A stretch of 64,000 nucleotides of DNA from assembly GCF_006363815.1 (NCBI RefSeq), contig NZ_RRYT01000008.1, positions 1 through 64,000 on the forward strand, written 5' to 3'. The translations under genes were made by a program, and so were the position numbers. The notes under the pieces are model-generated. The model ran no database searches and was not told where the DNA came from. It worked only from the letters and a program-made list of their open reading frames with translations. Position 1 is the stretch's first letter. Every line of letters begins with the position of its first letter. Shown one piece after another: positions 46,371 to 63,442 of this stretch. Source of the DNA: Thermomonospora catenispora (GTDB lineage Bacteria > Actinomycetota > Actinomycetes > Streptosporangiales > Streptosporangiaceae).

Positions 46371-47587
46371 CCGCCGGGCCGCCGCTGGTTGACGTAAGGG
46401 TCCTGACCGGCCCGTGCGAAGGCCTCCACCTCGGCGGGCCGGTCGAAGATCCGCCACGGGCACCTCATGCCCTTCGGCGGCTGCCACAGCTGCACGGCCT
46501 TGATCTGGGGATAGCGCCTGAGGGTGGCGGGGATCTCCCGGTACCAGCGGGCCGACAACGCCGGGTCGGTGTAGCGGACCGCGCCCAGCCCGTTGATCAT
46601 GTAGGGCTTGCGCGGGTCGATCCCGGCCTTGACGCCCTCGCTCTTGAGCCAGTCGTGGAACGGCTTGAGCGTGTCCTCGAACGAGGCGTACTTCTCGGCC
46701 CGCCAGATCCGCCCGTCGCACAGGTACGCCTGGTAGGCCTCCCAACCGATCCAGTCGACGTACCGGTCGCCGGGGTAAAAGCCCGCGGCGCGCGGGAAGT
46801 TGCCCGGGTAGCCGGTCAGCACCCACACCCACACCGCGTTGTCGGCGCCGTTGCGCCGGTACACGTCGTGGACGCGCCGCCAGGCGGCCACGAAGTCCGC
46901 CCCCGTCCCCCGGGTGCGGAGCTTGGGCGGGGTGTCGGGCTCGTGGTCGAAGGTGACGAACACCGGCGCGCCCAACGCGGCGATCCCCCGGGCCTGCCGG
47001 GCGAGGGTGCGGTCCCAGCGGCCCTCGGCGATCTGCCGCCACCGCACCCGCCCGCCGCCGAACGCCCGACCGGCGATGTTGATGTGCAGGATCCGGCCCT
47101 GCCGGGCCAGCCTGCGCGCCGCGGCGTCGGGGACGTCGACGGAGTCGATCCCGTACCAGAAGTGCACCAGGTCGAACCGGCGTCCGAACCGGGACTCCAT
47201 GTACTCCAGCGAGTCGACGCCGGGACTGACCCCCCACCACGCCCCGCAGGAGGGCACCAGATCGGCGCTCACCGCACCGCAGCCGTCTCCCCCGGTCACG
47301 CCGGCCGTCGCGTCCCGCCGGGCGGGCCGCCGTGGGCGGGGCGAGCCGGTGATCTCGGCCTCGGCCCGCAGCGGCGGTCCGACGGGATGCAGCGTGCGGT
47401 ACGGGCCGGGGTCCCCGGCCCGGCGGGCCGGGGCGGGCGCCTCGTGATCGGCGGTGAGGACGGCCGTCCCCGCCGTGACGGCCGCGAGGACCGCCGCCGC
47501 GACGACCCTCCGCCGGATCCGGGGCGGGGGCTCGACCCCCAGCGGTCCTCTCCGGCGGTCCCGGAAGGCCCTCGGGAGACGGCTCAT
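46367..47587 (-). CDS. GH26-like secreted protein lacking the nucleophile glutamate
   Basis: A 406-residue protein with a signal-anchor helix (about 27-46), a disordered linker, and a GH26-like barrel. The acid/base carboxylate is present (FVTFDHEPD, Glu about 216), and GWEAYQ and WVWVLTGYP match the other GH26 protein of the locus. At the position of the nucleophile, where the other protein has V-I-G-E-Y-G-A, this one reads M-I-N-G-L-G-A, so the glutamate is replaced by glycine (about 333). It may bind rather than cleave the glycan. Start ATG at 47587. It is last in the minus-strand operon. Confidence 0.75.
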   Translation of the reverse strand: MSRLPRAFRDRRRGPLGVEPPPRIRRRVVAAAVLAAVTAGTAVLTADHEAPAPARRAGDPGPYRTLHPVGPPLRAEAEITGSPRPRRPARRDATAGVTGGDGCGAVSADLVPSCGAWWGVSPGVDSLEYMESRFGRRFDLVHFWYGIDSVDVPDAAARRLARQGRILHINIAGRAFGGGRVRWRQIAEGRWDRTLARQARGIAALGAPVFVTFDHEPDTPPKLRTRGTGADFVAAWRRVHDVYRRNGADNAVWVWVLTGYPGNFPRAAGFYPGDRYVDWIGWEAYQAYLCDGRIWRAEKYASFEDTLKPFHDWLKSEGVKAGIDPRKPYMINGLGAVRYTDPALSARWYREIPATLRRYPQIKAVQLWQPPKGMRCPWRIFDRPAEVEAFARAGQDPYVNQRRPGG

Positions 47588-61745: not shown

Positions 61746-61929
61746 CGATTTCGGGTCGCCCCCGCGGCCCGGCCCGCCGGTCGGCGGCGACCGGGGCAGG
61801 GTCCCCGCGGCCGGGCGGGAAGGTCGAGGGACGAGCGGCGGATCGACGGGCGCGATCTGAGACGCGATCTGGGACGCGGTCGCACGGGCGGGCCTCAGCG
61901 CTGTATTCCGTCACTTCCCCTCTCTAGAT

Positions 61930-61945
61930 TCGAACATACGTTCGA
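61930..61945. promoter_or_regulatory. Perfect SOS (LexA) box
   Basis: TCGAACATACGTTCGA fits the actinobacterial LexA consensus CGAAC-N4-GTTCG with symmetric outer bases. It lies 20 bases before the start of the next plus-strand gene, where bound LexA would block transcription. Confidence 0.85.
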
Positions 61946-61965
61946 CATCGAGAGGAGGGATCCCG

Positions 61966-62304
61966 ATGATCTCGCTCATGGACACCGGGCCGGCGACGTC
62001 CTGGCGCCGTCGAGCACGGCGTTCCGGCGACCGGGACCGCCCGGGAGGACGACCGCCCTGGGGAGCGGGCGCACGAAGAGGGGCGAGGAGAGGGGCGACG
62101 GCCTCCGACACCGTCGCCGACGAGCGCATCGCCGAGTCCCTGACCGCGCTGGAGGACGCCCTCTGGCTGCTGACGGAGAGCGAGCGCACGCCGGCCTGCG
62201 CACTGGAGAACGCGGTCCGGCGCCACGACCACGTCGCGGATCTGCGCAGGCTCGTGCACCGGCTGCAGGAGCTGTTGCTGCGCTGGGAGGGGACTCCTCC
62301 GTGA
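61966..62304 (+). CDS. Small SOS-controlled protein of unknown function, 112 aa
   Basis: A 112-residue protein with an Arg/Gly-rich N-terminal half (about 12-45, strongly basic, possibly nucleic-acid binding) and a helical C-terminal half (TVADERIAESLTALEDALWLLTESERT and VADLRRLVHRLQELLLRWEG). No family is recognised. The ATG at 61966 is preceded by AGGAGGGA; a second ATG at 61978 is possible. The perfect LexA box just upstream implies induction by DNA damage. It could be a division inhibitor, a repair accessory or a regulator; nothing in sequence decides. Confidence 0.7.
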   Translation: MISLMDTGPATSWRRRARRSGDRDRPGGRPPWGAGARRGARRGATASDTVADERIAESLTALEDALWLLTESERTPACALENAVRRHDHVADLRRLVHRLQELLLRWEGTPP

Positions 62305-62468
62305 AGTGCGGATCGCGGCGGCCGTCCGGAGTTCGTCCGGACGGCCGCCGACCAGGGCCACCGGCTCGGATCACGAGACCGGAGCTCGACACGGGTGTCG
62401 CCCGCCGCATGGAAGTCGCACCGCAGGGGAACGAGAACGCCTTGTTCACACGGCGGGCGGCACCCCGC

Positions 62469-63302
62469 TCAGGGAGGCGGCTCGCCGCCGTCCTCGGGGC
62501 GGCGGGCCACCACGAAGATCCGCCGGAAAGGGAAGACCGTTCCGTGCGGGCCGGGCGGATAGGCCGCACGGAGGGCGGCGCCGTACTCGGCGAGGAAGTC
62601 GCGGGCGGCCTCGGGGTCGAGGGCCGAGAGGACCGGACGCAGGGTGGTGCCCTTGACCCACTCCAGGACGGCGTCGTCGCCGCCGAGCACCTGGATGTAG
62701 GTGGTCTCCCAGGCGTCCACCGCGCAGCCCAGGTCGGCCAGCAGCGTGAGGTAGCCGGCGGCGTCGCGGACCGGCTCGGCCTCCAGCAGGCCGCCCAGCC
62801 GGTCGCGCCAGCGCGGCGACTCGCACAGCTCGCGCAGCAGGACGTGGCTGGGCGCGGCATGGTTGCCGGGCACCTGGAAGGCCAGGCAGCCGCCCGGGGC
62901 CAGATGGTCCGCCCAGCGGGCGAGCAGCTCCTCATGGCCGGGGATCCAGTGCAGGACCGCGTTCGAGATGATCACGTCCACCGGGCGGGCGGGGCGCCAC
63001 CGCCGGACGTCCTGCACGGTGAAGCGCACGGATGCGCCGGCGGCGGAGGCGGCCCGCCGGGCGGCGGCGATCATCTCGGGAGAGGAGTCGAGCCCCTCGA
63101 CGACGGCGCCGGGCCAGCGCCGGAGCAGCGTCACGGTGCGCTCGCCGGATCCGCAGCCGAGGTCGACCACATGACCGGGATCTCGGACGGGGACCCGCGC
63201 GAGGAGCTCGTCGAACGGACGGCCGCGCTCGGCGCCGAAGACGCCGTACTGCGCGGGGTCCCAGACGGCGGACCCGCGTGCGGCGGCCAGTTCTCTCGAC
63301 AT
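62469..63302 (-). CDS. tam: Trans-aconitate 2-methyltransferase
   Basis: A 277-residue SAM enzyme that methylates trans-aconitate, a spontaneous inhibitor of aconitase formed from cis-aconitate. Family features are WDPAQYGVFGAERGRPFDELLARV at the N-terminus, VVDLGCGSGERTVTLLRRWP (motif I), VDVIISNAVLHWIPGH, and the C-terminal FPFRRIFVVARR. ATG at 63302 follows a good promoter by eight bases, so a leaderless message is likely. It is divergent from a MarR regulator that matches TamR. Confidence 0.93.
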   Translation of the reverse strand: MSRELAAARGSAVWDPAQYGVFGAERGRPFDELLARVPVRDPGHVVDLGCGSGERTVTLLRRWPGAVVEGLDSSPEMIAAARRAASAAGASVRFTVQDVRRWRPARPVDVIISNAVLHWIPGHEELLARWADHLAPGGCLAFQVPGNHAAPSHVLLRELCESPRWRDRLGGLLEAEPVRDAAGYLTLLADLGCAVDAWETTYIQVLGGDDAVLEWVKGTTLRPVLSALDPEAARDFLAEYGAALRAAYPPGPHGTVFPFRRIFVVARRPEDGGEPPP

Positions 63303-63307
63303 CAAGA
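63294..63307. promoter_or_regulatory. TamR operator site 1, over the tam start
   Basis: TCTCGACATCAAGA overlaps the tam start codon and expected transcription start. It is the exact reverse complement of site 3 over 14 bases, and a CTYGA-YR-TCRAG palindrome. Confidence 0.7.
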
Positions 63308-63310
63308 CAT

Positions 63311-63339
63311 ATCATGGCCGGAAAATATCTTGATGTCAA
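63311..63339 (-). promoter_or_regulatory. tam promoter
   Basis: On the minus strand a perfect TTGACA (63334-63339) is followed 17 bases later by CATGAT (63311-63316); the tam ATG begins nine bases after that. This predicts a leaderless transcript. Confidence 0.6.
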
Positions 63340-63340: not shown

Positions 63341-63428
63341 CATTCCGCCGCGTCCCGCCCGCGTCGCCCCTGCGGACCGCCCCTCCGGCCCCGCCCGCGA
63401 CCAGGTCGCGGCGCCGTCGGACCAGACA

Positions 63429-63442
63429 TCTTGATGTCGAGA
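63429..63442. promoter_or_regulatory. TamR operator site 3, before tamR
   Basis: TCTTGATGTCGAGA lies 17 bases before the tamR start and is identical in reverse to site 1, suggesting autoregulation. Confidence 0.7.

Follow-up and report, generated by a model that had tools for sequence, protein, structure and literature searches.

An orphan gene, here named Y, likely belongs to the LexA (SOS) regulon as a lineage-restricted member; it would be repressed by LexA, perhaps activated by PafBC, and may encode a small adaptor or inhibitor. It lies in the window, the whole 64-kb stretch of Thermomonospora catenispora DNA that was analysed. Because a LexA operator precedes Y and is common to several relatives, DNA damage very probably induces the expression of Y. 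The product belongs to a protein family that the searched libraries do not describe and would be an addition to a known regulon; gene Y was not found described in the literature on Thermomonospora with the SOS response or LexA, or on Actinomadura with DNA damage or LexA.

Results

A perfect LexA box overlaps the promoter of Y

The features of the Y locus in the window are as follows.

61909-61930, plus strand: core promoter CGTCACTT-N8-TAGATT, RecA-NDp-like; [TC]GTC-N12-TAnnnT in 19/19 orthologous promoters
61925-61930, plus strand: -10 element TAGATT, part of the core promoter
61930-61945, no strand: LexA (SOS) box TCGAACATACGTTCGA, an exact palindrome starting with the final T of the -10 element
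61950-61959, plus strand: ribosome-binding site GAGAGGAGGG, read from the sequence
61966-62304 including stop, plus strand: orphan gene Y, 112 aa; homologues in 19/341 family genomes, pN < pS in the core in 14/14 pairs
61966-62106, plus strand: Y codons 1-47, variable, Arg/Gly-rich, predicted disordered (pLDDT ~50); length and composition vary
62107-62301, plus strand: Y codons 48-112, conserved core, two-helix hairpin by alignment and model (helices 44-74 and 86-109)

An earlier note on this DNA had claimed a perfect LexA box 20 bases 5' of a 112-codon gene with a good ribosome site. We confirmed both claims: the box is exact, and a gap of 20 nt separates it from the ATG start codon at 61966. 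TCGAACATACGTTCGA was the sole zero-mismatch match to TCGAACNNNNGTTCGA in the window. The probability that a given 60-bp stretch contains a perfect box by chance is ~2e-5 to 4.5e-5. When up to one mismatch was allowed, the window held two matches (61930 and 47172; shuffle mean 0.05), the second being a LexA-like site at 47172-47187 with one mismatch. The 5.35-Mb genome contained four perfect boxes, compared to none for the reversed control pattern. For comparison, the S. venezuelae LexA consensus in the available part of its source is tCGAAC-N4-GNNCGa (PMC9380542). Y is a real gene.

The LexA box lies across both the end of the -10 element and the expected start site, and this arrangement was repeated in 8/19 orthologous promoters. 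In all eight box-bearing promoters the box starts 5-6 nt past the TA of the TAnnnT -10 element. LexA bound at this position would block RNA polymerase or initiation. DNA damage would then lead to RecA filaments, LexA self-cleavage and the release of Y.

The other three perfect-box genes of the genome encode an AlkB-like 2OG-Fe(II) oxygenase, an AAA_16 ATPase and a small protein without a family match. A partial further LexA box adjoins the perfect box of the AAA_16 ATPase gene (L166:6275-6290 in G000, contig C54; also L006 and L008). The two boxes precede this gene in the window genome and two congeners, and it is another uncharacterised SOS candidate.

Y homologues occupy a fixed locus in five genera

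A first scan of genome contigs found no relative, and tblastn with the window protein matched 5/60 relatives, two of them weakly. A profile search with 17 aligned sequences found homologues in 19/341 family genomes from five genera: Thermomonospora (3 of 5 genomes), Actinoallomurus (7), Actinomadura (5), g56 (2) and g58 (2). As damaged proteins, those of G078 and G079 were excluded from the alignment. Weak extra matches (19 further genomes in one search; G005 and G020 by tblastn) were not recovered by this profile and were set aside. Among 394 genomes sampled across the class, Y's own genome gave the only strong match, and G413 gave two weak ones (E 3e-5 and 5e-4). Phage records gave no tblastn match and viral contigs no relative, and a phage origin was rejected on these searches.

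One tetR gene lies directly upstream of the Y locus in 19/19 genomes. Within the fetched stretches we also observed a desaturase gene (17/19), a convergent methyltransferase gene (14/19) and a MarR gene (13/19); at three Actinoallomurus loci (L032-L034) MarR was seen and the methyltransferase was not. Two Thermomonospora genomes (G001 and G003) have intact flanks and neither Y nor box, with tetR followed directly by a conserved hairpin region and then the methyltransferase gene. G077 (g57), which groups inside Thermomonospora in the tetR tree, also has neither Y nor box and carries a different ORF at the site. A deletion in G079 fused the start of the neighbouring gene X (described below) to the end of Y. 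In G078, Y is out of frame near its end. Because Y is absent from two of five congeners and damaged in G078 and G079, it is dispensable. The Y family is young, variable in architecture and dispensable.

The box is conserved in part of the family

The earlier note looked to homologues with conserved upstream boxes, and these were found for part of the family. A perfect box is present at the Y locus in seven of 19 genomes (G000, G004, G068, G074, G076, G078 and G079) and a one-mismatch box in G002. The other 11/19 lack it, including all five Actinomadura and six of seven Actinoallomurus genomes. The note would have counted close relatives without box and frame against its proposal. Here the outcome was mixed, as two congeners (G001 and G003) lack both and the three others (G000, G002 and G004) have both. 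Beyond the genus, Actinomadura and most Actinoallomurus retain the frame without the box.

LexA specificity shows no visible change in the five box-less genomes scanned (G066, G070, G276, G323 and G324), as each of them carries 4-6 perfect boxes at other sites. Given the 11/19 box-less orthologues and the other boxes retained in those five genomes, LexA control is not essential to Y. In the tetR tree, several forks of which are weak, boxes occur in Thermomonospora, g56 and g58, and the box-less Actinomadura are nested among these groups. For this reason an ancestral box that was later lost is the simplest reading. The G068 box, inside Actinoallomurus, may have been either retained or gained.

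The core promoter resembles the PafBC motif

[TC]GTC-N12-TAnnnT was present 5' of Y or its first cistron in 19/19 genomes, within 90 nt in 16 of them and with longer leaders in three Actinoallomurus. For L028 the start used was CGA, which is no start codon; its distances are slightly off and the motif is unaffected. In the available parts of the sources, the RecA-NDp consensus is tTGTCRgtg-8nt-TannnT (PMC5656591) and is the motif of PafBC (PMC6789036, PMC8223512). The spacing at Y is exactly the published one. The window promoter matches 8/12 consensus letters (shuffle p 0.12) and that of G004 matches 11/12. Most Y-family promoters have TGTCACAC instead of TGTCRGTG, with CAC where the consensus has GTG.

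TGTCASWS-N8-TANNNT gave 34 matches in four genomes, compared to one for the reversed control. We read 18 of these loci: one is Y, others head UDG, HD-dGTPase-like, RadA-like, gyrase-B-like, WYL and SWIM genes, and the remainder are transposase-like or unidentified ORFs. In the window genome a pair of adjacent WYL genes, one of them encoding WYL and WCX domains, precedes a tatC-like gene, the arrangement expected for pafBC. The odds that the core promoter is of the PafBC (RecA-NDp) type are about even; PafBC would then act through [TC]GTC-N12-TAnnnT as a second, LexA-independent damage input that could persist where the box is missing.

Only slightly less probable is that Y is purely LexA-controlled and that GTC-N12-TAnnnT is either its normal housekeeping promoter or a site for some other regulator. 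This would fit the observation that, across the four scanned genomes, TGTCACAC-N8-TAnnnT was confined to Y (matches in G068 and G323), whereas position 8 is mostly G at the remaining RecA-NDp-like sites. It would also fit a negative motif search in S. venezuelae, where the available part of the source reports that the RecA-NDp motif was not found conserved (PMC9380542). Against pure LexA control, the published spacing is kept in 19/19 promoters and the G004 promoter is a near-complete match; box-less species would, moreover, be left without damage control.

In G068, ORFs at L117 and L137 lie behind TGTCAGTG-N8-TAnnnT, and there are more TGTCAGT[GC] copies in this genome. These ORFs presumably resemble IS200/IS605-type transposon proteins, and G068 may contain mobile elements with a damage-type promoter.

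Y encodes a small, predicted helical protein with a constrained core

The earlier note described a basic Arg/Gly half and a helical half. We found both in the Thermomonospora catenispora protein, and only the helical half is a family feature. The N-terminal half spans 10-53 residues with 6-33% R+K in the 17 aligned homologues and is predicted to be disordered, and any weight on it was not supported; as it is not conserved across the family, it was rejected as the working part of Y. The core follows the pattern DT.ADDCA..FL..LD.AL..L ... AFE.A.RK.DHV.ELRR.L ... DWE, and the alignment has eight invariant columns, counting the start Met. In the AlphaFold2 model, blocks of residues 51-110 have pLDDT 84-97 and the start of the protein is disordered.

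The earlier note had matched Y to no SOS protein familiar to it. In the libraries searched (Pfam, NCBIfam, PADLOC, PHROGs and PDB sequences) Y had no significant relative among known SOS, defence, phage or solved-structure families. All matches were weak, such as those to DUF7553 (E 0.098) and, for a single homologue, to Serglycin (E 0.0013, taken as chance). A PDB fold search with the Y model gave no match. A HEPN motif was rejected, as its residues are not conserved in the alignment. The product is probably a small cytoplasmic helical-hairpin protein; from its fold class one may guess at a dimer that serves as adaptor for, or inhibitor of, a partner. Small SOS proteins usually target division, replication or repair factors.

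Core dN/dS was 0.17-0.60 over 14 pairs and ~0.5 within Thermomonospora; by this measure the core is constrained, but loosely. It is improbable that Y is a decaying gene, with a working operator and a relic protein of little or no function that is being lost in the genus. Its absence from G001 and G003, the lesions in G078 and G079, and the dN/dS within the genus would suit decay. The frame, start, ribosome site and core are nevertheless intact in G000, G004 and G002, pN was below pS in 14/14 core pairs, and the operator register is kept.

A second gene, X, shares the box in some genomes

In g56 and g58 a second gene, X, lies between the box and Y. X encodes an all-helical protein of ~158-159 codons without a family match (model pLDDT 67), and a PDB fold search with its model gave nothing below E 0.001. 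X and Y were compared and rejected as relatives. X was located at four loci.

L027:1019-1495: X
L031:1028-1504: X
L030:1752-2216, minus strand: X
L078:1501-1971: X

In G074, G076 and G078, X overlaps Y (GTGA) and a single LexA box precedes the two, as it might in a LexA-controlled toxin-antitoxin or other two-gene unit. Such a unit is very unlikely, as toxin-antitoxin operons are expected to be obligate pairs whereas, of the 341 genomes, 19 carry Y and 4 carry X, X stands behind a one-mismatch box without detectable Y in G075, and no PADLOC or Pfam family matched. At three Actinomadura loci, read by eye, a short ORF overlaps the Y start in place of X.

Other elements lie downstream of Y

A G+C-rich inverted repeat just 3' of Y (62318-62350) is kept in congeners with and without Y and is probably a terminator common to Y and the tetR gene. 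A conserved structured element (62382-62478) lies where Y and the methyltransferase gene converge, between their ends. It has a long covarying stem and the loop CACCGCAGGGGAA, which belonged to the search pattern by which copies were gathered. It was also present in L002, L003, L024-L026, L028-L030, L038, L052, L054, L079-L084 and L086, with one copy each in 6/60 relatives and in 5/5 genomes of the genus. Its covariation score was 0.239; shuffles gave 0.157, and sliding gave no more than 0.105. Rfam gave no match, with chance-level scores only. A.C cells outnumber G.T cells in the stem (24 and 13), which hints at a minus-strand RNA, on the same strand as the methyltransferase gene. The element is possibly a new RNA family.

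Between the methyltransferase and MarR genes, ATCTTGATGTC occurs three times, once with a mismatch (63298-63308, 63327-63337 and 63428-63438; 0.24 expected). These copies are probably a MarR operator.

Discussion

Outside the model genera, few actinobacterial SOS genes have been characterised. Y is a well-bounded case, with a clear operator, a fixed locus, and natural species with the box, without the box and without the gene. This species set would allow a study of how control of a damage gene shifts between LexA and PafBC, and the compact protein is suited to structural work. A wider reading is possible but rather doubtful: Y, with X where present, would form a new family of damage-response effectors, limited to Thermomonospora, Actinomadura, Actinoallomurus and their near relatives and wired to both LexA and PafBC through one compact promoter. 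Lineages would switch between dual and single control by operator gain or loss, and the protein would be a checkpoint or repair adaptor.

The small SOS effectors ChiZ, DivS, SosA and SidA are short, fast-evolving, lineage-restricted and SOS-controlled. Y shares the first three traits and probably the fourth, a likeness of general description. It differs from them in that no membrane segment or known domain was apparent and in its predicted soluble helical hairpin.

The Y operator has the 16-bp type and promoter-overlapping position of the actinobacterial LexA regulon, as described for S. venezuelae in the available part of the source (PMC9380542) and for mycobacteria. Several lineage-specific hypothetical proteins are, like Y, among the S. 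venezuelae members listed there. The Y family, limited to five genera, is not described in that part of the source. Genes under dual LexA and PafBC control offer a further comparison, again within the available parts of the sources (PMC5656591, PMC8223512). In mycobacterial recA the operator is on a separate promoter, P2, whereas at Y it lies on the core promoter itself, which matches RecA-NDp only in part. Both genes nevertheless combine a LexA box with a core promoter, which is of RecA-NDp type in recA and resembles that type at Y.
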